34,707 nt of DNA from Phycisphaerales bacterium (GCA_003141275.1 PLLM01000065.1:1-34707), one strand, 5' to 3'; positions 6,248 through 34,704 are shown, counted from the stretch's first letter. Numbers and translations: made by a program. The notes: generated by a model from the letters alone, not told the origin.

Positions 6248-6488
6248 TTCCGACCTCGACGAGAACCATCAAATCACAGCGGACTCTCACCATTTCTTCG
6301 CTGGTCGCCGAAACCGACGATAAGTCTGGAAGCGGGCCAGGGTGTGAAGGCCCGTTTCTATTAAGATAAGTCCGAGAATCCCCCATTGCGTTACAGAAAT
6401 TTTGCGAAATTTCTCGGTTTTTTGAAAAATCGCAAAAAAATGTGTAACAAACGCCGTCTTTTATGGACAATATATGCAGGATAGACGT

Positions 6489-7343
6489 ATGGCAACAGCG
6501 CTGCAAAATATAAGCCCGGGGCTGATTCACGAGGCCAAACTGGGCAACAAGGACAGTATGAACCGGCTTGTCGAGCTGGCCGGGGACCGGCTTTATGCCT
6601 ATATCTACCGGCTCACGCTCGACCAGACCCTCACGCAGGACATATTGCAGGAGACAATACTATTTATGATTCAGTCAATAAACCAGCTCGAACACGTGGA
6701 CCATTTCTGGGGGTGGATCTTCAGGACAGCAATGGGCAAGGTACAGCATTACTACCGGGACCAGAACCGCAGGAAAACAGTTGAGCTGTCCGAAGATGAA
6801 CGGGTGTATATCCATAACCGCGTCAGCGCCGATTTTAACGACGGTCTGACTGAGCTTCTGCGAAAAGAGCTGTCCGACGCGGTCTTTATGGCAATGAAAC
6901 GGCTAAAGATGAAATACCGCAACATTCTTATCCTTCGCTGTTTTGAGAACATGGATTACGCCCAAATAGGCGCGGTGATGAACTGCTCCGAATTGCGCTC
7001 GAGGGTTATGTTTTTCCGCGCCAAGACCTCGCTGCGAAGGGAATTAGCAATGCAGGGTTTCGGGAAATACTACTTCCTCATCGCCCTTGCCCTGTTCGGC
7101 ATCGTAACCACCTCCGCCAAGGCGGCATCGTCGGCGACTATTACCGCATCATCTCTGGAAGTCGGGTTCACAGCATCACTGATTGCCATTATATCGAGCA
7201 AAATCGGTATTTCCGCGACAGCCATTGCGACGACGATTGCTTTTGTCATACCCCCTGCATCGTTGATTTACATTATTCCTTTTGCCTGCTTCGCCGTGCT
7301 TTTCGTTTTCTTCATCTACCTCGCCAGCATCTATAACAATTAA
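6489..7343 (+). CDS. ECF-like sigma-70 factor with hydrophobic C-terminal extension
   Basis: 284 aa. ATG 6489 is chosen because AGGA lies 7 nt upstream; an in-frame ATG at 6474 has no good site. Residues ~10-90 fit sigma region 2 (LVELAGDRLYAYIYRLT, then DILQETILFMIQS and FWGWIFRTAMGKVQHYYRD). Residues ~115-180 fit region 4 (KRLKMKYRNILILRCFENM, then DYAQIGAVMNCSELRSRVMFFRAK). Typical ECF factors end here, but about 100 more residues follow. The first is a helix (YYFLIALALFGIVTTSAKAA), then an Ala/Ser/Thr-rich stretch, then two hydrophobic segments ending in FAVLFVFFIYLASIYNN. This suggests a sigma factor anchored in the membrane through its own C-terminus. No anti-sigma gene is adjacent. The promoter class recognised is unknown. 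Confidence 0.8.
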   Translation: MATALQNISPGLIHEAKLGNKDSMNRLVELAGDRLYAYIYRLTLDQTLTQDILQETILFMIQSINQLEHVDHFWGWIFRTAMGKVQHYYRDQNRRKTVELSEDERVYIHNRVSADFNDGLTELLRKELSDAVFMAMKRLKMKYRNILILRCFENMDYAQIGAVMNCSELRSRVMFFRAKTSLRRELAMQGFGKYYFLIALALFGIVTTSAKAASSATITASSLEVGFTASLIAIISSKIGISATAIATTIAFVIPPASLIYIIPFACFAVLFVFFIYLASIYNN

Positions 7344-9453: not shown

Positions 9454-9478
9454 TAAAAAATCACCCTTCGGGAGGATA
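9454..9478 (-). terminator. Terminator overlapping the end of the pseudopilin operon
   Basis: On the minus strand the last codons and stop form ATC-CT-CCC-GAA-GGG-T-GAT followed by TTTTTATT. The stem is short and has an internal bulge, but the U-tract starts directly at the stop codon. Confidence 0.5.
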
Positions 9479-10279
9479 ATCTTTAAGCGTTTTCATCCAT
9501 TCCGGCCAGTCAGATACCAAGTTTGTATTAAAATTACGGTGCCATTTGAGCCGCCATAATTCCTTAAGTCCCACCTGTCTGGCTGAGCCATCCATGAATG
9601 CCATAGCGGTGTTCCCTGCCAAATGCCTATCTATGCAGAAAATACTCATATTAGAACTCTGGACTCCCCTGGACACAGGCGGACTATCGGTTGCTTCCGA
9701 TTCAGTGCCATCCCACATACAATCGCCAAATAACGGTACTTTATCTGGATGCGGAACATTGATAGTCCTCCAATATTTCGGACGGTCGGCAATTGCGATA
9801 TCATACAATTTGACCCCATTTATTGTCACACCTATGTCCGGCGGGTTATGCGCCCATCCATTGACCCCGTAACTGCCATACATACCTTTCTGAGCCCAGA
9901 CAGGAGTATAGGCAGCCCAGGACCCCTCACCGTATTTCCCCCACGCAGTAAAAACCCCCGCAGCAAAGGAGTCAGATGAATTACTAAGAAGGTTCCTGGC
10001 CGTCGGACACATACTTATATCTTCTGTCCAATTGAAGTACGGCAGAAAATCCACCATCCACATTGTGCCGCCGTTCCAGCCAACCGGACTTTTGCCGGCG
10101 TTGTCATTGGCGTACATCTGCCAGGCAGCAGCCAAAGTTCTAAGGTTAGCCAGACACACCTCGCGCTTTGCGATATTCCTTCCGCCGCCGCTGATGGCCT
10201 GGAGATTTACCGCCAAAAGGACCAATGCCACCGCCGTCACAATAACCTCTACCCTGGCCAAACCTTTCCTGTGATTCAT
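9461..10279 (-). CDS. Atypical pseudopilin-like protein (paralogue 4 of 4)
   Basis: 272 aa. The N-terminus MNHRKGLARVEVIVTAVALV has the layout of a type IV prepilin signal: basic leader, Gly, then a hydrophobic helix with Glu at +5. The usual FTLVELLVVIAI core is changed. After the helix comes GGRNIAKREVCLANLRTLAA followed by AWQMYANDNAGK, shared with the three genes upstream. The C-terminal part has H-x10-DG (HLAGNTAMAFMDG), a one-residue-longer variant of the H-X9-DG motif of planctomycete DUF1559-type and related proteins. It is probably an inner-membrane or secreted protein processed by a prepilin peptidase; function unknown. It is last in the operon, 45 nt after its neighbour. Confidence 0.78.
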   Translation of the reverse strand: MNHRKGLARVEVIVTAVALVLLAVNLQAISGGGRNIAKREVCLANLRTLAAAWQMYANDNAGKSPVGWNGGTMWMVDFLPYFNWTEDISMCPTARNLLSNSSDSFAAGVFTAWGKYGEGSWAAYTPVWAQKGMYGSYGVNGWAHNPPDIGVTINGVKLYDIAIADRPKYWRTINVPHPDKVPLFGDCMWDGTESEATDSPPVSRGVQSSNMSIFCIDRHLAGNTAMAFMDGSARQVGLKELWRLKWHRNFNTNLVSDWPEWMKTLKDYPPEG

Positions 10280-10324
10280 AATTTCTAACTCTATGCTGTC
10301 CGGCGAAAAAAAATATCGGTATCC

Positions 10325-11191
10325 TCAATACTCGCAATTTTTGGCGGGGTCGGTGCAGGAATATGGGACATCGCCCCAGGTAACTTCGGTCATCCACCGC
10401 AAATCGCAGTCGCAGTAATCAACAGTGCCGCCGCCCCATTGCAAAACCACCGATGCGAGTGTATGCGGGTCTGTCCATTTCCTGTATATGGCGTGGCCAT
10501 CGGCGAAAACAAAGTTTGTTCCCTGACTGTGCTTCATAGGCGGCAAGTCACCCCATGTCCCCGGCGGAGCTGAGCCGCCGGTGCCATTATAATTAACAAA
10601 AAATGCGCCCTGCTTGGCAGCCCCAACATCCAAAAATACAAACCTTTCGGCTGGTCGGGTAATCTGATTTATATTTGTAAATGTCACAGCACCGGAGCCC
10701 GCCGAATTAGGATAAGTATTCATCGACTGAGACATATAGTATGTTACATAATATTTTCTGTTACTGTCAGGGCACCGGTAAATATTGTAATCCCCGACAT
10801 ATTTCCATAATGTTCCTTCCGCGATGGCGTGCTCCCAGGCCGCCTGTGGTATCGAAGCGCTGTAAGAATATGCTCCGATATAGTTAGTATTGTAGGTAGG
10901 CGGTATAGGATGCGGATTTACATGCGGCCATTCAACCCAGGCCAGCTGCGGTCCACCGGAAGACGCAGGAAATATCCAAGAATACCACACATCGCCGACA
11001 GGTATTTTGCCGCCGTTATCGCCGGAGTAAGTTTGCCAGGCGGCTGCCAAAGACCGCAGATTGGCCAGACATACCTCCAGCTTAGAGCGTTGGCGCCCGC
11101 CGGCATTCAAAACGGCTGCCTGCGCCAGCACAAGGGCGACGCACGCTAATGCGACCGCCATATCAACTCTTGTTAAACCTTTTCTCATCAT
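10325..11191 (-). CDS. Atypical pseudopilin-like protein (paralogue 3 of 4)
   Basis: 288 aa; the second ATG (11188) is an equally possible start. The leader MMRKGLTRVDMAVALACVAL has Gly at -1 and Asp at +5 where classical pseudopilins have Glu. The shared segment GGRQRSKLEVCLANLRSLAA follows. The middle is rich in Tyr and Pro with a Cys near YRCPDSNRKYYVTYYMSQS. The end has an exact H-X9-DG motif (HSQGTNFVFADGHAIYRKW) and several late cysteines (CDCDLRW, SCTDPAKNCEY). The start lies 5 nt after the previous stop, so translation is likely coupled. Extracytoplasmic, function unknown. Confidence 0.8.
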   Translation of the reverse strand: MMRKGLTRVDMAVALACVALVLAQAAVLNAGGRQRSKLEVCLANLRSLAAAWQTYSGDNGGKIPVGDVWYSWIFPASSGGPQLAWVEWPHVNPHPIPPTYNTNYIGAYSYSASIPQAAWEHAIAEGTLWKYVGDYNIYRCPDSNRKYYVTYYMSQSMNTYPNSAGSGAVTFTNINQITRPAERFVFLDVGAAKQGAFFVNYNGTGGSAPPGTWGDLPPMKHSQGTNFVFADGHAIYRKWTDPHTLASVVLQWGGGTVDYCDCDLRWMTEVTWGDVPYSCTDPAKNCEY

Positions 11192-11196
11192 AATTT

Positions 11197-12111
11197 CTAC
11201 TCAAGATTTACCGGGCAGCTCGGCGTGTAAAGAAGCCCTCCCCAGCATCCTATCTGCACCCAATAAAGGTCGTTTAGGGCATTGCAAGTTACTGGATGAG
11301 CGTTGTAAATATCACCACTGCCAAAATCAATAGTTTCTTTGGCCTTCCACTTATGGTACACGCTATGGCCATCGGCAAAAGACACACACGTTCCGTTTTC
11401 GTGCGGCACCGGCGGAGGGTCAAACCAGCATTCCGACCCCGAATAAACGGCATAACTGTCCATACCAACCGTGCCCTCATCGATGAATACTATTCTGCCT
11501 GAGGCACCTTTTATCTGACTGATGTTCTTCGGCATCATAGTTGGAGAGTTGTCTGAGCCACCTTGAAAATTCCACTTATATTTACCGTTCATCGAATCAA
11601 TAATCGAATACGTAACAATCGCATCTTTTTTGCCGAAGGGACAACGGTAGATATTATAATCGCCGGTATATTTCCAGAGTGCACCTGTATCAATAGCAAC
11701 TTTCTGGAGACATTCACTTTGAGAACGGTCGGAATACCACGGCTCCGCGCCAAACGCCCAGGCGGGACCTATCCATGGTAATTCATCTTTGTGCATGGAA
11801 TAAAATGCGCTTGTAATGGGCGGCACTATCGCCCTAACCTGATCGCTAAGACCAGCAGGCGGAGCCGGGCAGGTCCCGGACGGAGGGGAACCGCCGGGAG
11901 CGATGGGTGCGCCATTAACAAGTTTGCCTGCGTTGTCATCGGCATACGCTTTCCATGCAACGGTAAGCATTCTAAGATTGGCCAGACATACTTCGCGCTT
12001 AGAGCGATCGCGTCCGCCTGCATTTATAATGCCCACCTGCGCCAGCACAAAGGCGACACACGCTACTGTTATAATGGCATCGGCTCTCGAAAAACCTTTA
12101 TTCGCGTTCAT
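11197..12111 (-). CDS. Atypical pseudopilin-like protein (paralogue 2 of 4)
   Basis: 304 aa from ATG 12111 (MNANKGFSRADAIITVACVA). The frame stays open to 12282, but that part overlaps the previous gene, and the leader at 12111 aligns with those of its paralogues. Asp occupies +5 in place of Glu. The segment after the helix, QVGIINAGGRDRSKREVCLA, is almost identical to paralogue 1, indicating recent duplication. A conserved block GALWKYTGDYNIYRCP in the middle is shared with paralogue 3. The C-terminus has H-X9-DG (HENGTCVSFADGHSVYHKW). It follows paralogue 1 after a 25-nt gap. Function unknown. Confidence 0.8.
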   Translation of the reverse strand: MNANKGFSRADAIITVACVAFVLAQVGIINAGGRDRSKREVCLANLRMLTVAWKAYADDNAGKLVNGAPIAPGGSPPSGTCPAPPAGLSDQVRAIVPPITSAFYSMHKDELPWIGPAWAFGAEPWYSDRSQSECLQKVAIDTGALWKYTGDYNIYRCPFGKKDAIVTYSIIDSMNGKYKWNFQGGSDNSPTMMPKNISQIKGASGRIVFIDEGTVGMDSYAVYSGSECWFDPPPVPHENGTCVSFADGHSVYHKWKAKETIDFGSGDIYNAHPVTCNALNDLYWVQIGCWGGLLYTPSCPVNLE

Positions 12112-12136
12112 AAGCCCAGCTTCATTAACACAACCT

Positions 12137-12955
12137 CTATTCACCCCATATCGCATTCCGCAACCATGCCTGGTCTTTGGTTTGAAAGCAGGTGTCTGGC
12201 CCTGGCGGCGGATTTCCGCCTGATGCCCAGGTAATCGTTGACTGACATTCCCATTGATGATATTCGGCATGGCCGTCGGCAAACCCGAAATTTATACCAT
12301 TGCCATGCACAATGCTTAAAGCATCGCAGAGCGGATCCGAGGGGAAATCTATCGGAAACTCGAAAGCGTCAGGAGTTAATATCTTCTCCTCTAAAAACAC
12401 AATCCTTTCATTCGGCCTTGCAATCTGCCCCGTATTCTTTGCCACCTTATTTATGGGGTAACCGGGCACCCCTAATAACCCCCCTGCCATCGTCCACGCC
12501 GCGTTCATAGGAGTGGGCATAACATACGTCCGGTGCATATCTTTATCTGCCTCGGGGCAACGGAAAACAATTACATCCTGGCAATATTTATAAAGCGCAC
12601 CCTTTTTAAGTTTCTCCACCCTCTGTTCGAAGTTTAATACTGGCGCGCCAAATGCAGCATTCCAGTCCCAGTCATATCCTGGGTCTGCAGGCGTGTTAAA
12701 AGATGTACACCAATATGGCTCGGTCGGCGCCGGATTACTGCTCGGAGATTGTCCGCCATTTACAAGTTTGCCGGCGTTATCATCGGCATACGCCTTCCAG
12801 GCGGCGGTAAGCATTCTCAGGTTGGCCAGACATAATTCGCGCTTAGAGCGTTCTCGCCCGCCAGCATTTATAATGCCCACCTGCGCCAGCACAAGGGCAA
12901 CGCACGCTAATGCGACCACTGCATCAATCCTTGTCAAACCTGATTTTTTTCTCAT
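12137..12955 (-). CDS. Atypical pseudopilin-like protein (paralogue 1 of 4)
   Basis: 272 aa. The leader MRKKSGLTRIDAVVALACVA has Gly at -1, Leu at +1 and Asp at +5. Then follows QVGIINAGGRERSKRELCLA and the AWKAYADDNAGKLVNG block shared with paralogue 2. The middle contains GALYKYCQDVIVFRCPEADK, matching the GALWKY...YRCP block of paralogues 2 and 3. The end has H-X9-DG (HGNGINFGFADGHAEYHQWE). It starts 12 nt after the stop of the large secreted protein, so it is the second gene of that operon. It is probably cleaved by prepilin peptidase or kept as a membrane-anchored protein. Function unknown. Confidence 0.8.
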   Translation of the reverse strand: MRKKSGLTRIDAVVALACVALVLAQVGIINAGGRERSKRELCLANLRMLTAAWKAYADDNAGKLVNGGQSPSSNPAPTEPYWCTSFNTPADPGYDWDWNAAFGAPVLNFEQRVEKLKKGALYKYCQDVIVFRCPEADKDMHRTYVMPTPMNAAWTMAGGLLGVPGYPINKVAKNTGQIARPNERIVFLEEKILTPDAFEFPIDFPSDPLCDALSIVHGNGINFGFADGHAEYHQWECQSTITWASGGNPPPGPDTCFQTKDQAWLRNAIWGE

Positions 12956-12967
12956 AATCAGTTCTGC

Positions 12968-15862
12968 TTATTCAAATTCACTTTGCTTCAGCCATTCATC
13001 CGCAAGGGCGTTCAAATCCCAGATATTGGTGTAGGCGCCTCTATCCACGTCGCCGGGGGCGTAAAGGCCGTATTTTGTAATTCCGGCGGCGCATAACGTC
13101 GGATTGAGCGGGTCTGTGCAATCGCGCCAGCTTTGGGCCAATACCGCGAAATCGATGAAATCGACCATATTGTCCGCCCGCAAATCCGCCGGGCGGTGAA
13201 GGACCGGCGACTGCCCATCGCAGGAATTGCTCGTTATGGCCCAGACCCTGTTGTTGGCATCGCTGACAATAAGCGTGCCATCTTCAGCGACGGCAGGGAA
13301 ACTCATCCAGTTGTTACCCTTGAAACGCGAAATCTCCAAGCCATTGGAATCGACCACGCAGACATAGTTATCATCACTTGCGGCGTAAATCTTGTTATCC
13401 CTGTCGATACTCAATGTGAATCCGCCGATTAACCCCAGCCGGGTTATCCATTTGATTGTGCCGTTTGGCTCAACCGCACGCAGGTACGGGTCATCGAAAC
13501 TGACGTATATCGTGCCATCTGAGCCGACCACCGGCGACGACCAGCCGGATGAATTCATATCAAAAGGCAGCCCCAGAGAAGTTGACCAGAGGATATTGCC
13601 CGTACAGGGGTCAAGGGCGTAAAGATTCGGGTCGCGGACAAGCGTTTGATATATGGTTCCGTTGGGGCCGATAGCCGGCGACGCCACAATCTGGCCCTTA
13701 TTCGGCTCGACGGCCCCAAAGTTACAAACCCATTTGATATTGCCATTGTTGGCATCGAGGGCATATAAATTCGGCTCGTAGAGTCCGCCTATGTAAACCG
13801 TTCCGTTTTTGTCTATAACAGGCGTAGCGAATATCACACCTTTAAGATTAGCAGGACCTTTAGTCGAAAATGACCACAACTCGCTGCCGTCTGCGTCGAG
13901 GGCGTAAATAGAACCGTCTTCCGAGCAAATGTAAATTTTTCCGTCGTATCCCACTATGGGAGTCGAGTATATGGGGGCGTTTGTTTTATGCGTCCAGGAT
14001 ATGTCCCCATAATCATCAATGGCGTATAACCAGCCGTTTTGGCCTGCGACGTACACCATCCAGTAATAGCCCACGGCGGGCGAGCCGACGACGGCCGTGT
14101 TTATATCGCAAATCCAGTTAAGCTCGCCGAGGTCATCAAGCGAATAGATATTCCCGTCCTCGGAGCCGATATATATCCAGTAGCTGTCCCAGTAGGGCCT
14201 TGTAACAGCGACCCGAGAGGAGACAGGCCCATCCGTTTCAAAAACCCATTTAACGCAGCCAATTCGCGGCCCTTTGTTTGCGTTCAAATCCGGCGAGGGC
14301 AATAACCCCCTGCGAAGCCACTGCGAAGGCACGGCCGGCCGAGTCGGATACCAGCTCACCGTAAACAGGCTGCTTGACTCGCTAATCACATTGGCATCTG
14401 CAACGCTCGGCACAACTGAAATAACGCACTGATTCGACTCGATATCGCCCGGCAACTGCCAAAGGTAGCTGTTGGCATCGGCAATTGCGTTGGCAATCGT
14501 CTCCCAGGTATTGCCATTGTCGCTGCTGAAAAGGACATCTACGCTGCCGACTCTGTTTTTAATCCACTTAATCGGATGTTTACTGCCCGTCGCCCAAACC
14601 TCGCCGCCCGCGGGTTTGGTAACAACAATAATTTTACCATATTCATAAGCGCCCATATCAACGGCGTGTCCGATTAACCTCGGCTGGCCGTCAATATCGG
14701 TTACGTTGGGGCCGGGGACATAAAGCGGATTGCCATTGTCGATACAAGGAGAATCCGGCCGCAGGTGCAAATCGCCGTAATCATCGTTACCGCCGACTCC
14801 CCAGCCATCTCCTCCATCGTTTGGCTCTCGGACAAACATCGGGTCGTCATTAATATTACCGTTATTTGCGCCGCCGAATTTATTTTCAAAATCCTGGATA
14901 CAACTGAAAAGCAGCGTTTGACCCGGGCTCGCAGGCAACGGGTATATCTGTGCGCTTGTCGTTACGCCTGTGGAATCATTGTTGCCCCAGAATATGCAAT
15001 GAACGGCCGTTCCTGACCAATAAACGCCTCCGCCTAAACCCCCTGCCGCGTTGCCGGCGAGCGTGCAATTTGATATGGTCACGCTGGCAGACGTATTTTT
15101 ATATATCCCGCCCCCGTTGAGCTGTGCAAAATTACCCGCCACAATACTATTGTTAATATCCACTGTGCCGGAACTGGCATAAATTCCACCGCCATACTGC
15201 GAAGACGTTCCCGATGCGACATTGCCAGCAATAAAAGTCCTGGTAATCTTCGTCGTACCCATCGTGAATACCCCTCCGCCGCGTCTGGCTGAATTGCCGC
15301 TGATATTACAATCGATTATTGATGCAGCTGCGCAGTTAACTCCGCCGCCATCCGTCAACGCGCGATTACCTCTTATTTTACACCCGACGATTATCAGTGT
15401 CGGACTGCTGCCTGGTGAATAAATCCCGCCTCCGTTACCAGCGCTATTATTGTCTCTTATGTCGCAGTTTCGTATCAATGGAGCATAAGAGCCATTTAGA
15501 ATAAATATCCCGCCGCTGCCGTTCGAAGAACCATAACCGCGGATAATAGTAAGGCCGTCCAAAACCACGCTTGCGTTTATGGTGAATGCCATACCTAATC
15601 CGTTGCAGTCAATGACAGTGCTTTCGACCACACTTTCATCGTTCGGGTCGATGCTGCGAACGGTTATTGCCTTGCCGGCAAAGGTGATGTTGTAATTCCC
15701 AACGCCAGTGTATGTGCCGGGGGATATTATGACTGTGTCGCCTGCCACTGATGCGTCGATTGCCGACTGAATGGTTGAATACTGGCTGGGGACTAAAAGT
15801 TCTGCGCCAAAAGCGCTTGAGCTCAGCAGCAAGACCGCTGCTATTACGATGACCCTCTTCAT
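12968..15862 (-). CDS. Large secreted beta-helix / PQQ-like propeller / dockerin-like protein
   Basis: 964 aa. Residues 1-20 are a signal peptide (cleavage after SSSAFGA). Residues ~25-345 are a right-handed beta-helix with repeated N-x-A...GGGIY units, as in polymorphic outer-membrane/pectin-lyase-like proteins. The helix is capped by a choice-of-anchor Q end (SPCIDNG ... DMGAYEYG, ~370-408). Residues ~411-503 form an Ig-like domain (KPAGGEVWATGSKHPIKW, SSDNGNTWETI). Residues ~535-890 are a beta-propeller of PQQ-like repeats (GSIYALDADGSELWSFST, NLYALDANNGNIKWVC). The tail (~895-964) has two EF-hand/dockerin-like halves (DFIDFAVLAQSW, NIWDLNALADEWL) with several acidic ligands missing. Probably a cell-surface or matrix protein. 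AAGGGCAGG precedes the ATG. It is the first gene of a five-gene operon. Confidence 0.88.
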   Translation of the reverse strand: MKRVIVIAAVLLLSSSAFGAELLVPSQYSTIQSAIDASVAGDTVIISPGTYTGVGNYNITFAGKAITVRSIDPNDESVVESTVIDCNGLGMAFTINASVVLDGLTIIRGYGSSNGSGGIFILNGSYAPLIRNCDIRDNNSAGNGGGIYSPGSSPTLIIVGCKIRGNRALTDGGGVNCAAASIIDCNISGNSARRGGGVFTMGTTKITRTFIAGNVASGTSSQYGGGIYASSGTVDINNSIVAGNFAQLNGGGIYKNTSASVTISNCTLAGNAAGGLGGGVYWSGTAVHCIFWGNNDSTGVTTSAQIYPLPASPGQTLLFSCIQDFENKFGGANNGNINDDPMFVREPNDGGDGWGVGGNDDYGDLHLRPDSPCIDNGNPLYVPGPNVTDIDGQPRLIGHAVDMGAYEYGKIIVVTKPAGGEVWATGSKHPIKWIKNRVGSVDVLFSSDNGNTWETIANAIADANSYLWQLPGDIESNQCVISVVPSVADANVISESSSLFTVSWYPTRPAVPSQWLRRGLLPSPDLNANKGPRIGCVKWVFETDGPVSSRVAVTRPYWDSYWIYIGSEDGNIYSLDDLGELNWICDINTAVVGSPAVGYYWMVYVAGQNGWLYAIDDYGDISWTHKTNAPIYSTPIVGYDGKIYICSEDGSIYALDADGSELWSFSTKGPANLKGVIFATPVIDKNGTVYIGGLYEPNLYALDANNGNIKWVCNFGAVEPNKGQIVASPAIGPNGTIYQTLVRDPNLYALDPCTGNILWSTSLGLPFDMNSSGWSSPVVGSDGTIYVSFDDPYLRAVEPNGTIKWITRLGLIGGFTLSIDRDNKIYAASDDNYVCVVDSNGLEISRFKGNNWMSFPAVAEDGTLIVSDANNRVWAITSNSCDGQSPVLHRPADLRADNMVDFIDFAVLAQSWRDCTDPLNPTLCAAGITKYGLYAPGDVDRGAYTNIWDLNALADEWLKQSEFE

Positions 15863-15889: not shown

Positions 15890-15918
15890 ATTATACCAAT
15901 CCTGCGCAGCTTTGTCCA
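15890..15918 (-). promoter_or_regulatory. Promoter of the beta-helix/pseudopilin operon
   Basis: On the minus strand TGGACA (15918-15913) and a perfect TATAAT (15895-15890) are 17 bp apart. The predicted start is about 20 nt upstream of the ATG at 15862. Confidence 0.7.
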
Positions 15919-19390: not shown

Positions 19391-20350
19391 TTATGCAGAA
19401 CGGCGTATTGGTTCCCGGTAAGTTAGACGTTTACCCTCCGCCCCCTTGATTGCCTTTGTGATGCGTTCCCCATCGTTTAATTTTCGGGTATCCCATCGAA
19501 ACCCAAATTCAGAAACGTAACGATGCAGGTGTCTTTTGCTTACGGAATGATATGTACCATACAAACCTCTTTTAAGACGTGCAAAGAAGCTCTCCGCCGT
19601 GTTGGTATAAATGTCACCTCGAACGTATTCCCGGCGGCTGTGGCATACTTTTTCGTGTCCGCCCCAAAATACGTTTGTAGCGTTATTATAAAGAGGACTT
19701 TCGTCGGTGATGATTCTTGATGATAACTTAACCTCTTTTCGCAATTCAGTTTTTAACGCTGCGGCGGTTACGTTCGGAATAACGCGCGTCCTAACGCCGC
19801 CATTGCGTTCAACCAAAGCAATCACGGGCGTTTTTGGTGTGCCGCGTCCTCGCAAACTTACCCCGCGAAAGCGCGGCTTGCCGCCTACATACGTTTCGTC
19901 CGCCTCAATCGTGCCTTGCAGCTTTTCTTGCTGTTCTGGCGCAGTCATTGCATAGCGGATGCGGTGCATAATAAACAAAGCTGTTTTGTAAGTTACGCCG
20001 CACTCTCGCCTAATCTGTAAAGCACTTACGCCATTCTTAGAGGAGCAAGCTGCCCAAAAAGCGTGACACCATATTTTAAGCGGCACTCGTGAATCCTCAA
20101 AAACCGTGTCGATGCGAACAGTGTATTGTTTCCTACAATCTAAATCGTGGCAACGCCAAAGGAATCTTTTATTTCGTCCGCCGCTCTTGTCTTTCATTTT
20201 AGATACTTCGATACTGCCGCAATGGGGGCAAGCCGGGTGCTTATCCCAATCCCGCTGTTTTTCCATAAACTCCACAGCCGCCGTTTCGTCCAAGCAAGCT
20301 AATGGCAATTCGCTTACGACCTTATCGATATTTTCAACTTTCTTCTTCAT
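19391..20350 (-). CDS. IS1595-family (ISXO2-like) transposase
   Basis: 319 aa, normal family length. The N-terminus has a zinc ribbon (CPHCGS at ~41-46, WRCHDLDCRKQYT ~25 residues later) and the family's TVFEDSRVPLKIW block. An HTH-like stretch (VSALQIRRECGVTYKTALFI) follows. The DDE/N nuclease domain shows IEADETYVGGK (first Asp), IITDESPLYNN (second Asp) and TNTAESFFARLKRGLYGTYH (third acidic/Asn region). All key residues are present and there is no frameshift, so it may be active. It cuts and joins DNA at the 23-bp ends. The gene has a near-consensus promoter 7 nt upstream of its ATG. Confidence 0.93.
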   Translation of the reverse strand: MKKKVENIDKVVSELPLACLDETAAVEFMEKQRDWDKHPACPHCGSIEVSKMKDKSGGRNKRFLWRCHDLDCRKQYTVRIDTVFEDSRVPLKIWCHAFWAACSSKNGVSALQIRRECGVTYKTALFIMHRIRYAMTAPEQQEKLQGTIEADETYVGGKPRFRGVSLRGRGTPKTPVIALVERNGGVRTRVIPNVTAAALKTELRKEVKLSSRIITDESPLYNNATNVFWGGHEKVCHSRREYVRGDIYTNTAESFFARLKRGLYGTYHSVSKRHLHRYVSEFGFRWDTRKLNDGERITKAIKGAEGKRLTYREPIRRSA

Positions 20351-28049: not shown

Positions 28050-30002
28050 TTAATTTCCTTTCATTGCCCGCTGATACGATTCCAAACTGGCCTTGAGCTG
28101 TGCGACAACATCATCCTTGCCTTGTTTTTGTGCCAATTCGAGTGCCTTTTGGGCCATCTCGATGGCGCGTTTCATATCCTTTTTAGCAGCGTATGCCTGC
28201 GAAAGGAACGTCATCGGTTCGGCCACTTTATAATTGGACAATCGGCACGCCTTTTCAAGCTGCTCTATCGCAGTGTTCATGTCACCCTTTATGCCATAAA
28301 TCAATCCGGCCTTTTGATAAAACTCGAAGTTGTTCGGGTCTTTTACCTGCAAACTCAGAATCACATCCAGCGCTTTATCCAGTTTCCCGCTCTCAACCCC
28401 GACCTTATACAAATTATTCAAAGCTCTCACCCGGTGTGGGTCTTTCGTCAGCACCATGGCGAACTGTTCAATTGCTTCGTCATACTGCTTGCTTTTTACA
28501 AGCGCTACACCGAAGTTATTGCGTGTATCAATTTTGTCCGGCTTAGCCCGCAACACCAGTTCAAATTCAGCGGCCGCTTCAGCGTCAAGCCCTTTTCCCT
28601 GCAAGACATTCGCGAGCTTTTCGTGACCGTCCATCCACTCGGGATTAATAGCCACTGCCATCCTGATATATTCTATCCCCTCATCGAATCGCCCCTTGCT
28701 TGCGAGGACCTGACCATAGTCGCTATCTATCACATAGTTATTCGTCGTCACATCCAGCGTATGTCGAAATAACGATTCGCTGTCTTTCCAGTACCCTGTC
28801 TGCACTTTGGTTATCAGCAACAGCACAACCAGAACCACCGCACCGGCAGTCGCTGGAACGATTTTTGGTAGGCGTAATCTCGCTATTGCTTCGCCTGCAA
28901 GCCAGGCGACTATGATATAAATCCCTATACCCGGCAGGTACATATACCGATCTGCCATCGCCTGCCCACCTACCTGCACCAGCCCGATCACTGGCACTAA
29001 TGTCCCCAGATACCACAACCAGCCGGTCAATAAGAATTTATACTTGCGTCTCTCAATAATTACTGCCGTCGTTAAGACCAGTAACAACACCAAGCACAAA
29101 ATCACCTTCCATAATGGATACCCATTCGCATCAAGCGGATATAAGACCGCCAACGAGGTCGGATAAAAAAGCTTTCCGATATACCTGATATATGACACAA
29201 CCGCGTTTTTCGCCTGCAAAGCCAGCGGCATCGAAACCATATCCGACATTACCCCCGCAGTGAGCTGCGCAAAATACGTCGCAACGCAAATAGCCGCAGA
29301 TATTGCCAGAAGCGGGGACTTATCGATAATCGCCCGCCAAAACCACCGTCGCCCGTTCAAATTCTCGAACCTGTCTATCGGCCAATAGTCCAGCAGTATC
29401 AAAACAAAGGGCAATGTCACCAGCATCGGTTTGGAAGCCAATCCCGCCACGAACAAAGCCGCAACCAGAAGGTACCGCCGCACTCCCGGCTTTTGCGCAT
29501 ACCGCGAATATGCCCATATCGTCAAAAACGCGAAAAAGGTGTTCAGAACGTTCTTGCGTTCCGCTACCCACGCCACCGACTCCACCGCCAATGGATGCAG
29601 CCCGAACAGCGCTGCGACAAGAGCGCTTGGCCACAACTCGCCGGTCATTGTTTTTAGTATCAAAAAAAGCAGGATTACATTGGCGATGTGAAAACCAACG
29701 CTGACTAAATGGTGCCCGGCTGGTTTCATGTCAAAAATGGAAACATCAATAAGATGACTTACCCACGTCAGCGGATGCCAGTATCCCTGTCGCCAAGCCG
29801 TCAGCGCCCACCACGCTGACTCGAAGCTGAGCCCTCCTTTGACATGCTCGTTGTCCGTTATGTACAAGTTGTCGTCGTAATTGACAAAGTCGTAATTGCG
29901 GACGCCCTCGAACGCGACAAACGTCACTGCCCCCAGTACGATACAAATAAACAGAGCCCTGAACTTTTCGCCGTGTTTTGGCCTTACAACAATGCCGGGC
30001 AT
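28050..30002 (-). CDS. GT-C-type membrane glycosyltransferase-like protein with TPR repeats (paralogue B)
   Basis: 650 aa. Residues ~15-400 hold about 10-11 hydrophobic helices with the GT-C signature after the first: NYDFVNYDDNLYITDNEHVK, the acidic pair expected for a lipid-sugar-dependent O-mannosyltransferase. Further conserved blocks are YWHPLTWVSHLID, LFGLHPLAVESVAWVAERKN and YMYLPGIGIYIIVAW. Residues ~425-640 hold about five TPR-like repeats (for example EAAAEFELVLRAKPDKIDTR). The architecture resembles eukaryotic TMTC proteins and many planctomycete homologues. It probably transfers a sugar from a polyprenyl carrier to proteins on the outer face of the inner membrane. It starts 9 nt after its paralogue's stop. 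Donor and acceptor are unknown. Confidence 0.8.
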   Translation of the reverse strand: MPGIVVRPKHGEKFRALFICIVLGAVTFVAFEGVRNYDFVNYDDNLYITDNEHVKGGLSFESAWWALTAWRQGYWHPLTWVSHLIDVSIFDMKPAGHHLVSVGFHIANVILLFLILKTMTGELWPSALVAALFGLHPLAVESVAWVAERKNVLNTFFAFLTIWAYSRYAQKPGVRRYLLVAALFVAGLASKPMLVTLPFVLILLDYWPIDRFENLNGRRWFWRAIIDKSPLLAISAAICVATYFAQLTAGVMSDMVSMPLALQAKNAVVSYIRYIGKLFYPTSLAVLYPLDANGYPLWKVILCLVLLLVLTTAVIIERRKYKFLLTGWLWYLGTLVPVIGLVQVGGQAMADRYMYLPGIGIYIIVAWLAGEAIARLRLPKIVPATAGAVVLVVLLLITKVQTGYWKDSESLFRHTLDVTTNNYVIDSDYGQVLASKGRFDEGIEYIRMAVAINPEWMDGHEKLANVLQGKGLDAEAAAEFELVLRAKPDKIDTRNNFGVALVKSKQYDEAIEQFAMVLTKDPHRVRALNNLYKVGVESGKLDKALDVILSLQVKDPNNFEFYQKAGLIYGIKGDMNTAIEQLEKACRLSNYKVAEPMTFLSQAYAAKKDMKRAIEMAQKALELAQKQGKDDVVAQLKASLESYQRAMKGN

Positions 30003-30011
30003 ATTCTGTTA

Positions 30012-31961
30012 CTACCTTTCTTTTAACATCTGCTGATACGATTCCAAACTGGCCTTGAGCTTTGTAACAACATCATCCTTACCTTCTTTTTGGGCCACTT
30101 CAATCGCCTTTTGGGCCATCTCGATGGCGCGTTTCATATCTCTTTTAGTTGCGTATGCCTGCGAAAGAAACGCTATCGGTTCAGCCACTTTGTAATCAGA
30201 CAATCGACAGGACTTTTCGAGCTGCTCTATCGCGGCATCGAGATTACCCTGTGTGCCGTAAAGCAATCCGGTCTTTTCGCAAAACAGATAGTTGTCGGGA
30301 TCCTTTTTTTGCAGGGCCAAAATTATATCAAGCGTTTTGTCCTGTTTTCCGCTCTCAACCCCTGTTTTGAACAAATTATTCAAAGCGTTCACACGCCGCG
30401 GGTCTTTCGTCAGCACCATAGCGAACTGTTCAATAGCTTCGTCGTACCGCTTTATTTTTACAAGCGCTATGCCGAAGTTATTGCGTATATCTTTGTCCGG
30501 ATTTGAACGCAGCACCAGTTCATATTCAGCAGCCGCCTCGGCGTACAGTCCTTTCTCGTATAAGGCATTCGCAAGCTTCTCGTGAGCATCTATCCACCCG
30601 GGACTAATAACCAATGATTGTCTGATATTTTCTATCGCCTCATCCAATTGCCCCTTGCTTTGGAGAACCTGACCATAGTTACTATATATTACAAAGTTAT
30701 CCGTCGTCACGTCCAGCGTATGCCGAAATAACGATTCGTTATTCTTCCAGTACCCCGTCTGCGTTCTGGTCATCAGCAGCAGCACGACCAGAACCACAAC
30801 ACCGGCCGTCGCCGGAACGATTTTGGGCAGGCGCAGTTTCGCCGATGCTTCGCCCGCAAACCAGGCGACTATGATATAAATCCCTATGCCCGGCAGGTAC
30901 ATATACCTGTCCGCCATCGCCTGCACACCCACCTGGACCAGGCCGATAACTGGCACCAATGTCCCCAGATACCAAAACCAGCCGGTCAACAAAAATCTGT
31001 GCCTGCGTCTCTCAATAATTACTACCGCCGTTAAGGCCAGTAACAACACCAGGCACAAAATCACCTTCCATAATGGATACCCATTCGCATCAAGCGGATA
31101 CAAGACCGCCAACGAGGTCGGATAAAAAACCTTGCCAATATACCTGACATACGACACCATCGCGTTTCCTGCCCGCAAACCAAGCGGCAGCGAAACCATA
31201 TCCGGCACCGCCCCCGCACCTGCCTGCGCCACATAAGTCACCACACAGAACGCCGCGGACATTACCAGAAGCGGCAACTTATCGATAATCGCCCGCCAAA
31301 ACCATCGCCACCCTTTCAGTCCGCCGAATCTGCCCATCGGCCAATAGTCCAGCAGAATCAGAACAAACGGAAGCGTCACCAGCATCGACTTGGAAAGCAA
31401 TCCCGCCGCGAAAAGAACCGCAACCATTACGTATCGCCGCCACCCCGGCTTTTGCGCATACCACAGATACGCCCATATCGTCAAAAACGCGAAAAAGTTG
31501 CTCAAGACATTCTTGCGCTCGGCAACCCAGGCGACTGATTCCACGCCAAGAGGATGCAGCCCAAAAACCGCGGCGACAAATGCACTTGGCCAAACAGCGC
31601 CCGTCATTTTCTTCAATACCAAAAAAAGCAGGATTACACTGGCGACGTGAAAACCGACACTGACCAAATGATGTCCGGCCGGTTTCATACCAAAAACGGT
31701 AACATCGATAAGATGACTTATCCACGTCAGAGGATGCCAGTTGCCCTGATACCGGGTCGTAAACGCCCACTTGATTGACTCTAAGTTCAGCCCCTTCTGT
31801 ACGTACTCGTTACTCGTAACATATTTGTCGTCATCAAAGTTAACAAAATCATTCGACCTGACCCCCTCAAACGCAGCGAACGTCGCCGCCGCCAGGGCAA
31901 TACATATCAGCAGCATCCTGGGTGTGTCCATTTGTTTCGCTTGTATATTACTGTCGGGCAT
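30012..31961 (-). CDS. GT-C-type membrane glycosyltransferase-like protein with TPR repeats (paralogue A)
   Basis: 649 aa, same architecture as the following gene. It has a single N-terminal helix, the acidic pair motif (SNDFVNFDDDKYVTSNEYVQ), about ten more helices with LFGLHPLGVESVAWVAERKN, and five TPR-like repeats from residue ~425. By eye the two proteins share well over two thirds of residues, and some DNA stretches are nearly identical. The start lies 2 nt after the DUF1638 stop codon, so translation is coupled. Both GT-C copies keep the proposed catalytic acids, so neither looks degenerate. The differences concentrate in the periplasmic loops and TPR region, which could give different acceptor specificity. 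Functional assignment is inferred from the family. Confidence 0.8.
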   Translation of the reverse strand: MPDSNIQAKQMDTPRMLLICIALAAATFAAFEGVRSNDFVNFDDDKYVTSNEYVQKGLNLESIKWAFTTRYQGNWHPLTWISHLIDVTVFGMKPAGHHLVSVGFHVASVILLFLVLKKMTGAVWPSAFVAAVFGLHPLGVESVAWVAERKNVLSNFFAFLTIWAYLWYAQKPGWRRYVMVAVLFAAGLLSKSMLVTLPFVLILLDYWPMGRFGGLKGWRWFWRAIIDKLPLLVMSAAFCVVTYVAQAGAGAVPDMVSLPLGLRAGNAMVSYVRYIGKVFYPTSLAVLYPLDANGYPLWKVILCLVLLLALTAVVIIERRRHRFLLTGWFWYLGTLVPVIGLVQVGVQAMADRYMYLPGIGIYIIVAWFAGEASAKLRLPKIVPATAGVVVLVVLLLMTRTQTGYWKNNESLFRHTLDVTTDNFVIYSNYGQVLQSKGQLDEAIENIRQSLVISPGWIDAHEKLANALYEKGLYAEAAAEYELVLRSNPDKDIRNNFGIALVKIKRYDEAIEQFAMVLTKDPRRVNALNNLFKTGVESGKQDKTLDIILALQKKDPDNYLFCEKTGLLYGTQGNLDAAIEQLEKSCRLSDYKVAEPIAFLSQAYATKRDMKRAIEMAQKAIEVAQKEGKDDVVTKLKASLESYQQMLKER

Positions 31962-32747: not shown

Positions 32748-33587
32748 TTACTGTAAATCAAATGGCGTGTTATCCACAGGCTCGAACCAGCCAATGTTCA
32801 TTTTCGCCATTTCCGCGGTGTAGTTTTCTCTCAACACTGGCTTGGCCATCGGTTTTGCCTCAACGTGTCCGTCCACCCAGCCGACGTTCGCCAAACCGTA
32901 ATGTCGAAAGTGAATCGAAGGCGACACGAAGGCGGTATCAGTTATGCCATTCGTTACATAATGTGGCGGCTCAGCAAACGAATATTCCACAAGATACTGA
33001 ATCCCCTCATAATCATTACAGAATGCCGTATCCGCGAACATCAACGTCTCGGCGGTTCTCTTCACTTCCACCGCATTTGTCGTCTTGGCATATGCCTTAA
33101 TCATCGCGGCAAAAGTTGTAATTCCATTGCCCCAGAGCCGGCTGCCCAAGTATTGCATATTGTACCCGTAACCCCCGCAGCCACGCTCAAAGTTTATCAT
33201 CCCATCCTGGCTTTTTGAGAACTCAACGCTTTCGGGACATTTCTTGACCTTGCCATCCGCAAGATAACCAACTAATGGCCCCTTCAAGGGGTCAAATGGC
33301 TCATCCGGTCCGGTTCGTTTCCCGTGCCAGCGACACATCCCACCTTGCAACAATGCTATTGGATTGCATAAGTCCTCAGCCGCGGACACATAATATCCGT
33401 CGTGGTCATTCGAGTATCCGATGTTTGCCAAAACAAGCTGCTTCAGGTTCGACCTGCACACAATCGCCCTTGCTCTCGACCTTGCTGTGTTCATCGCGGG
33501 TATCGTTACCGCCATAACCACCGATATGGTCGAGACGACCACCATTACTTCTACCAGGCTGAATCCGCGTTTACCTTTTCCGCTCAT
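32748..33587 (-). CDS. Type II secretion pseudopilin-like protein with H-X9-DG motif
   Basis: 279 aa from ATG 33587 (MSGKGKRGFSLVEVMVVVST); an ATG nine nt earlier is possible. The prepilin signal is classical: basic leader, Gly at -1, Phe at +1, Glu at +5. The post-helix block reads IPAMNTARSRARAIVCRSNL followed by KQL, and the C-terminal end has an exact H-X9-DG (HYGLANVGWVDGHVEA). Two cysteine pairs in the middle (NPIALLQGGMC, GCGGYGYN) may form disulfides. It follows the secreted dockerin-like gene after 28 nt and is probably its operon partner. Presumed envelope protein; function unknown. Confidence 0.83.
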   Translation of the reverse strand: MSGKGKRGFSLVEVMVVVSTISVVMAVTIPAMNTARSRARAIVCRSNLKQLVLANIGYSNDHDGYYVSAAEDLCNPIALLQGGMCRWHGKRTGPDEPFDPLKGPLVGYLADGKVKKCPESVEFSKSQDGMINFERGCGGYGYNMQYLGSRLWGNGITTFAAMIKAYAKTTNAVEVKRTAETLMFADTAFCNDYEGIQYLVEYSFAEPPHYVTNGITDTAFVSPSIHFRHYGLANVGWVDGHVEAKPMAKPVLRENYTAEMAKMNIGWFEPVDNTPFDLQ

Positions 33588-33615
33588 AATAATCAATTAT
33601 CAATAACCAATTTTG

Positions 33616-34704
33616 TTACCGCCACTGTTCGACCTTGCGCCAGCCCTTAGCGAATTCCGCAAAGTCCTTGAAATTAACAGCTAAATCCTTTGGCTTGGCC
33701 AAATCGCAACGCGACAGGTAATTATCCTGCCCGAAATGGCTCAACCAGCAATCCGCAAAGATTTCCAAATCCCCGTAATCAACAATTCCGTCTAAGTTAA
33801 TATCCCCACTGTATTCCTGTGGCTTGAGCACCCCTATCGCCTCCAAATCAAAGCCGTCCGACCCTTTAGTAGGCCAAGCATCATATACCGGATGATTAAC
33901 ATCATAGTAACCCCAATTGGGCCAGGTACAGGGGTCTATTAGTTTATGTGCGTTGTCGTAAAAATTGCCGCTTCCCGGGATATCCACTATTCGCACATAC
34001 GAGATATTGTTCAGGTCAACAAGGCCGGCTACGACGTTCGGCTCATTGGTGATTTCGCTCAAATCAAAAGGCGTACCCGTGAATGTGCCGTAATTATTCG
34101 GATGTTTTCCGGCCAGATTATACACCTGGGTAATATCGAAATAGCAATTATACTGATTGGGGTCCAGCGCACCTGTCAAATCCACCGACGGGAATCTCGC
34201 GAAATACGTGCCGTCGGACGAAACCTCGACGTATCCAAACTCGCAGAAATACAAGTTATCTCGGGCGCGAAACCCGTTTTCAAAAACCACGAAGTCGTAG
34301 CCGTTTTGGTCGCGGATTGTCTGAGTGAACGACAAAGTGATTTGTCCGGGCGACACACCGGCGTTAATTTCGTTCTGGTCAAGGTCGCCCAAACTTACCG
34401 TGTCGTAGGAAATGTGACTATAACTCGGCCCCAATGCCATTGTCGGGTCAAAATACATAATCTCTCGCTGATATCTTGGCGATGTCGGTGTCGGCGTCGG
34501 CGTCGGGTCATAACTGAAATAATCCGTCGCCCAGCCGCGGAATATCGGGTTTATCACCCTGTTCGGGTCCGATGGCGTTGTCGCCTTGTGGTCATGCCCG
34601 ATATACGAGCATACACCAGCTTCTCTGTATGGTCCGCCCTTCACTATGGCTCCAAACAATCCAATAATCAAAAACACCGTCCACGTAACAGTTCTTTTCA
34701 TCAT
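33616..34704 (-). CDS. Secreted protein with C-terminal dockerin-like domain
   Basis: 362 aa; the ATG at 34704 (or 34701) lies 3 bp from the window edge, so the promoter and ribosome site are not visible. A signal peptide (VTWTVFLIIGLFGAIVKG) is followed by a Pro/Thr tract (DPTPTPTPTSP). The beta-rich body (~85-285) contains YDFVVFENGF and YVEVSSDGTYFARFPSVDL, a pattern common in uncharacterised planctomycete cell-surface proteins. The tail (from ~300) has a classic Ca-binding loop GDINLDGIVDYGDLEIFADCW and a degenerate partner VNFKDFAEFAKGW. The tail probably anchors the protein to a cohesin-like partner or matrix. It is followed by a pseudopilin-like gene. Confidence 0.82.
   Translation of the reverse strand: MMKRTVTWTVFLIIGLFGAIVKGGPYREAGVCSYIGHDHKATTPSDPNRVINPIFRGWATDYFSYDPTPTPTPTSPRYQREIMYFDPTMALGPSYSHISYDTVSLGDLDQNEINAGVSPGQITLSFTQTIRDQNGYDFVVFENGFRARDNLYFCEFGYVEVSSDGTYFARFPSVDLTGALDPNQYNCYFDITQVYNLAGKHPNNYGTFTGTPFDLSEITNEPNVVAGLVDLNNISYVRIVDIPGSGNFYDNAHKLIDPCTWPNWGYYDVNHPVYDAWPTKGSDGFDLEAIGVLKPQEYSGDINLDGIVDYGDLEIFADCWLSHFGQDNYLSRCDLAKPKDLAVNFKDFAEFAKGWRKVEQWR

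Follow-up and report, generated by a model that had tools for sequence, protein, structure and literature searches.

The question raised by this locus is why a gene for a large secreted protein should be followed by four genes for pilin-like proteins. The locus lies in the window analyzed here, the whole 34,707-base contig (C20, PLLM01000065.1) from the 3.05-Mb draft genome of a Phycisphaerales bacterium (GCA_003141275.1). Five open reading frames (ORFs) on the minus strand, with gaps of 12, 25, 5, and 45 nucleotides (nt), encode the large protein (12968..15862, 964 residues) and then proteins 1 (12137..12955, 272 residues), 2 (11197..12111, 304 residues), 3 (10325..11191, 288 residues), and 4 (9461..10279, 272 residues). 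The start codons were assigned by inspection; a longer ORF of protein 2 starting with TTG was judged unlikely. A sigma-70-like promoter on the same strand (15890..15918; TGGACA-17-TATAAT with an extended −10, 11 of 12 positions matching) ends 28 nt before the first ATG of the large-protein gene. It is the best-scoring site in the region, where the 11 promoter-like sites found in total are near the 9.4 expected by chance. Coordinates, gaps, and promoter agree with a first-pass annotation of this DNA, which had proposed a dedicated surface-assembly or display system with four atypical pseudopilins. Genes for a large secreted propeller protein and one to four pilin-like proteins proved to form a conserved operon arrangement, and the pilin-like genes are, judged from codon and tree comparisons, mosaics at the DNA level.

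The four pilin-like proteins have in common an unusual N-terminal anchor, extending from the start codon to a common cysteine (minus strand, 12830..12955, 11986..12111, 11069..11191, and 10154..10279 for proteins 1–4). As had been annotated, all four contain G-[LF]-x-R-x-[DE] together with GGRxxxKxExCLANLR, the FTLVELL core is absent from all of them, and residue +5 is Asp in proteins 1–3 and Glu in protein 4. Gly is retained at −1, but residue +3 is Arg. An N-terminal profile of these proteins scored 126–136 bits on themselves, and the next best stretch of the genome reached 58 bits. In the 161 genomes compared from the order, H-X9-DG-type proteins can be aligned gaplessly from the cleavage position as far as the common Cys (position 36), and they fall into two classes. 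The ordinary class reads [GA]|FTL[VI]E...P22...R28..[GA]K..C36, with Gly or Ala at −1 in 67 of 67 proteins; this set was chosen by a pattern over +1 to +9, so that −1, +5, +12, and +22 were the free positions. The atypical class (n = 61) has Lys or Arg at +3 in 57 proteins, Asp at +5 in 53 (a register partly fixed by the acidic or amide residue), Cys at +12 in 53, and at position 22 Ala in 50 and Pro in none. Position −1 is Gly in 9 and Ala in 13 of the 61. Scores with the atypical profile are bimodal, with about 60 hits of at least 80 bits in 28 genomes and ordinary pilins from 77 bits downward. The N_methyl and TIGR02532 (GFxxxE) models matched none of 33 atypical proteins. Because of Lys/Arg at +3, Asp at +5, Cys at +12, the loss of Pro22, the rarity of Gly at −1, and the lack of an N_methyl match, the atypical proteins are probably membrane anchors left uncleaved, derived from pilins but not working as such. 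This weakens the pilin idea of the first-pass annotation, which was said there to fail if the N-termini were uncleaved simple anchors. A lipoprotein reading of Cys+12 was dismissed by inspection, as Asp+5 lies seven residues earlier and the hydrophobic stretch runs on past the Cys. A phylum-wide search found the anchor class in the window genome alone; as the scoring covered 15 candidates per genome and the sample included few close relatives, absence elsewhere is not firm.

The neighborhoods of all atypical hits were read. Of 29 informative atypical clusters, 25 are immediately preceded, on the same strand and with a gap of −4 to 68 nt, by a gene of the propeller family to which the large protein belongs, intact copies matching with E-values of 1e-135 to 1e-183. 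Three of the 25 were recognized only after propeller hits outside the upstream gene considered initially had been checked, and seven further clusters cut off by the end of a contig or by a run of N were set aside. None of 34 ordinary pilin clusters (28 control regions, drawn from high-scoring ordinary hits and not at random) adjoins the family. The difference corresponds to a Fisher p of about 1e-13, which overstates independence because the loci are related. The atypical class occurs in 28 genomes of the sample and the propeller family in 25, with 22 in common. Conversely, a search with the propeller found an adjacent pilin-like gene, sometimes upstream, in most further members with visible flanks; two members (L156 and L161) have none. 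The proposed linkage of the atypical N-terminus to surface-protein genes thus holds. No paper on the pairing was found among open-licence papers.

Some distant propeller-family genes stand beside pilin-like genes with intermediate N-termini, ALTLVDLLVVIA or GFTRTELMVVVG. At L154, L155, and L157 (genomes G027 and G028), the pilin-like gene is upstream of the propeller and has Asp at +5 in an otherwise ordinary core (ALTLVDLLVVIA); by sequence, these genes are possible intermediates between the two N-terminal classes. Inspection of L079, L081, L091, and L078 showed atypical genes clustered with genes resembling Tat-signal sulfatases and an anaerobic sulfatase-maturating enzyme, and further neighbors resembling a Gfo/Idh/MocA-type oxidoreductase and a DUF1080-like protein. 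These neighbors give a hint of sulfated polysaccharides.

The constant partner is the PQQ-type propeller, and family members may or may not carry the beta-helix, immunoglobulin (Ig)-like, and dockerin-like modules. The N-terminus of the large protein resembles a signal peptide; beta-helix, choice-of-anchor Q, and BamB/PQQ-type propeller matches follow, and the structure model of the protein displays the beta-helix, an Ig-like sandwich, the propeller, and a helical tail. The right-handed beta-helix (residues 21–300; 14963..15802, minus strand as for the other domains) is supported by PF13229 and the model, and is found in about half of the relatives. The Ig-like (Kre9/KNH-like) domain (residues 411–505; 14348..14632) is a beta-sandwich in the model. 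It matches PF10342 weakly; this model recognizes 3 of 20 relatives at 1e-3, and a local profile about 15. PF13360/PF13570 match the propeller (residues 529–876; 13235..14278) in 20 of 20 relatives, and some family members are barely more than this propeller and a Pro-Glu-rich tail. Foldseek matched it to the designed eight-bladed Cake8 (E = 1.6e-26), and also to YxaL and BamB. The C-terminal repeats (residues 889–958; 12989..13198) contain the motif D-x-N/D-x-D...WL twice and match a local profile; the Pfam dockerin model matches neither the large protein nor 20 relatives. A partnership of dockerin with cohesin was dismissed for the window genome (92% complete), where a search at E up to 0.1 returned no cohesin. 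Of the annotated beta-helix/propeller/dockerin protein, the beta-helix and propeller stand, and the tail is dockerin-like by motif and model. Likewise, the proposed surface system keeps its conserved pairing with its own pilin-like set but loses the beta-helix and dockerin parts as the constant partner. A propeller search across about 85,000 species gave strong matches (E below 1e-70) from Planctomycetota only, with relatives named as Phycisphaerae, Sedimentisphaerales, and Anaerohalosphaeraceae.

The gapless N-terminal alignment up to Cys36, the modeled helix, and profile matches mark the four operon proteins as descendants of H-X9-DG/DUF1559 pilins with an altered N-terminus. With the H-X9-DG model TIGR04294, protein 3 scores above the curated cut-off and protein 1 reaches 16.9 bits, and 9 of the 33 relatives match at E = 0.01; the His and Asp of the motif are invariant in all 33. 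PF07596 (DUF1559) gives weak matches to 4 of the 33 and none to the four window proteins. Protein 4 has a second globular type, ending in WPxWMxxxKDY. The model of protein 1 (mean predicted local distance difference test score, pLDDT, of 78) has a 51-residue N-terminal helix (residues 9–59) and a small beta domain, a long helix on a globular beta domain as in type IV pilins. Foldseek found nothing significant for the pilin-like model (E = 2.9), nor did a sequence search of solved structures with the pilin-like family. On a second look, type IV pilins were the sole structural matches, weak but in the expected direction: PilA4 of T. thermophilus (6xxd_A; Z = 4.8, 122 residues aligned, root-mean-square deviation of 4.8) and a Myxococcus pilus (Z = 2.8). 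Cys42 and Cys133 (protein 1 numbering) are also invariant in the 33 atypical proteins, which suggests a disulfide in the globular domain.

The mosaic nature of the genes had not been annotated. In a tree of 129 globular parts, the atypical proteins are scattered among ordinary pilins, with 26 label changes, of which well-supported branches force at least 19. One atypical protein shares 75% identity with an ordinary pilin over its globular part and 25% over its N-terminal 36 residues. The opposite is seen with two atypical proteins at the equivalent position in orthologous operons (G004 and G001), whose identity is 81% for the N-terminus and 27% for the globular part. The DNA of these two loci is largely collinear over ~20 kb at 75–83% identity, with some stretches unaligned, and in the third gene the agreement is limited to the first 125 nt or so. 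The G004 globular domain is found behind a different N-terminus in G002, where identity is ~55% over the first 90 nt and then 84–97% in most windows of the alignment. Within the operon studied here, the genes of proteins 2 and 3 have identical codons for 22 of 26 common residues (85%) in the first 45 codons and for 31 of 81 (38%) thereafter, chance being 37%. Other pairs among the first three genes give a like pattern, and the fourth shows little of it. The nearest relatives of the globular parts are ordinary pilins of the same genome, on contigs C85 for protein 1 (57%), C67 and C48 for protein 2 (53 and 52%), and C77 for protein 3 (52%), whereas the N-termini of proteins 1–3 are 20–30% identical to those same pilins. 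Because the agreement extends to synonymous sites in the 5′ parts and is lost in the 3′ parts, the pattern is one of mosaic genes at the DNA level, with a common anchor and globular domains exchanged with ordinary pilins, rather than convergence of the proteins.

The best explanation, held with slightly better than even confidence, is a two-part envelope module of Sedimentisphaerales-type Planctomycetes, in which a propeller protein would be presented, in the manner of PilY1 and minor pilins, by pilin descendants with a resident anchor and exchangeable domains. One part would be a Sec-exported protein built on the constant PQQ-type propeller, with the optional modules added. The other would be one to four membrane proteins from H-X9-DG/DUF1559 pilins that retain the long pilin helix. 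In sequence, their prepilin-peptidase core (G|FTL[VI]E...P22) has been replaced by the resident anchor ([KR] at +3, D at +5, C at +12, and the hinge GG-R-x-x-A-K), so that they probably remain uncleaved in the inner membrane. Anchor and hinge stay with the operon, and the globular domains have been exchanged with ordinary pilins of the same genome, by recombination that would lie at the hinge or just behind it. The anchored proteins may hold the propeller protein, or present it, in the periplasm or on the cell surface, much as PilY1 is held by minor pilins, and the exchangeable domains would determine the ligand, probably polysaccharide or another envelope component. The data show the pairing, the loss of the prepilin motif in sequence, and the mosaic structure; the uncleaved anchoring and the holding or presenting role are inferred. 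Several observations weigh against the two-part module. Gly or Ala is kept at −1 in 22 of the 61 atypical proteins, some of which could thus still be processed. Four atypical clusters are unlinked, namely three hinge-insertion variants near sulfatase-type clusters and one singleton. Propeller identity tracks the anchor (rho = 0.37) about equally with the globular part (0.33) in a Mantel test, and co-evolution of anchor and propeller is thus not shown. PF05567, the PilY1 family, matches neither the large protein (E up to 1) nor 20 relatives (1e-3). All relatives are from draft or metagenome genomes.

The four proteins could instead be pseudopilins dedicated to a type II secretion system (T2SS) that exports the large protein, which is the first-pass idea in its secretion form. 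Pilin descent and tight linkage to a single secreted protein would fit, as would the presence in the genome of prepilin peptidase and many ATPases of the T2SS or type IV pilus kind. The two A24 peptidase matches and the many T2SSE ATPases, however, are all on other contigs; neither peptidase nor ATPase is encoded in the operon, and no secretion gene is constantly next to relatives in the neighborhoods read. The matching peptidase and ATPase that had been sought are thus found only elsewhere in the genome, and with a prepilin motif not conserved in the class (Gly or Ala at −1 in 22 of 61, Lys or Arg at +3 in 57 of 61, no N_methyl match), the view of the proteins as filament subunits is not supported. 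The genome also has 36 N_methyl matches, two being ordinary pilins in the window, and these ordinary pilins could serve secretion, which leaves the T2SS role unlikely. Alternatively, they could be processed minor pilins that mount the propeller protein at the tip of a type IV pilus in just the way known for PilY1, which would fit the parallel architecture (PMC8179133) and the canonical or nearly canonical N-termini (ALTLVDLLVVIA, GFTRTELMVVVG) of some distant relatives next to the propeller gene. Such a role is rather improbable, as the motif is lost in the strongest and most numerous members and PF05567 is absent. Intermediate N-termini in distant families would also be expected if ordinary pilins landing behind a propeller gene had repeatedly acquired the anchor by convergent change, without recombination. 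This is very doubtful given the agreement of 5′ parts but not 3′ parts at synonymous sites, and the near-identical globular DNA (84–97% in most windows) behind different anchors in G002 and G004. Pilin paralogues are so many in Planctomycetes (PMC10632474) that some might lie near a surface protein by chance, an explanation that is hardly credible against a linkage of 25/29 versus 0/34 and bimodal profile scores.

The two-part module has parallels in known systems. The operon proteins resemble the planctomycete H-X9-DG/DUF1559 family (SBP_bac_10, PF07596; TIGR04294) in descent, in the Cys-x-x-N-L-R segment, and in the CP and H-x9-D-G motifs, and the globular domains nearest to theirs belong to ordinary family members of the same genome; the difference is that the N-terminal prepilin motif has given way to a separate class of anchor linked to a propeller gene. 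PilY1 bears a propeller and variable modules, and a linked set of minor pilins presents it (PMC8179133). As with PilY1/PilC and the minor pilins FimU-PilV-PilW-PilX, and with CofB/CofJ, a secreted protein adjoins several pilin-like genes, and as in PilY1 a constant propeller is combined with variable modules. The operon propeller, however, is of the PQQ/BamB type, outside PF05567, and its pilin-like partners lack a conserved cleavage site. It resembles BamB and YxaL in fold and repeat sequence, but the protein is multidomain, secreted, and far under the BamB equivalog cut-off (110 versus 285 bits). The idea of a carrier plus an effector has been put forward for modular pilins (PMC8179133). PilB of Streptococcus sanguinis likewise joins a carrier N-terminus to an exchangeable effector part, but there a foreign domain is grafted onto a canonical carrier, whereas in the operon the carrier end itself differs and entire globular domains of pilins are exchanged. 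In Neisseria pilE/pilS recombination, the N-terminus is constant and the C-terminal part is exchanged through tracts of DNA in common. The operon genes have these same features; unlike in Neisseria, the donors are complete genes with another N-terminus, and exchange is seen only on evolutionary time scales, with no evidence of switching within a population.

Elsewhere in the window, an ordinary pilin-like gene (32748-33596, minus strand; N_methyl, DUF1559) lies near the contig end, 19 nt behind a gene (33616-34704, minus strand) for a protein that at its end gives a match to the dockerin-like profile (E = 6e-13). An arrangement of this kind, with a pilin-like gene following one for a dockerin-like protein, may be more widespread. 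Two tandem 650-residue membrane proteins (28050-30002 and 30012-31961, minus strand), with a weak PMT_2 glycosyltransferase match and a strong TPR match, are encoded near a second ordinary pilin gene. An IS1595/ISXO2-type transposase (19391-20350, minus strand) and a sigma-70 family (ECF-like) factor whose C-terminal part is hydrophobic (6474-7343, plus strand) are also present.

DUF1559 pilin-like proteins are the largest paralogue group in the model planctomycete Planctopirus limnophila, with 68 copies, of unknown function, two of them essential (PMC10632474). The defined propeller partner, the N-terminal switch from processed to apparently unprocessed, and the visible exchange of globular domains make the role of such proteins directly testable. 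A handle is thereby offered on a very large family of proteins with no known function, from a little-studied order of Planctomycetes, in which pilins appear to be reused as membrane anchors. It is tentatively suggested that the propeller operon is a recombination acceptor, its resident anchor repeatedly taking globular domains from the pool of ordinary pilins. If so, it would be a display locus diversified from about 30 donors, and the expansion of DUF1559/H-X9-DG proteins in Planctomycetes would partly represent its repertoire of donors.

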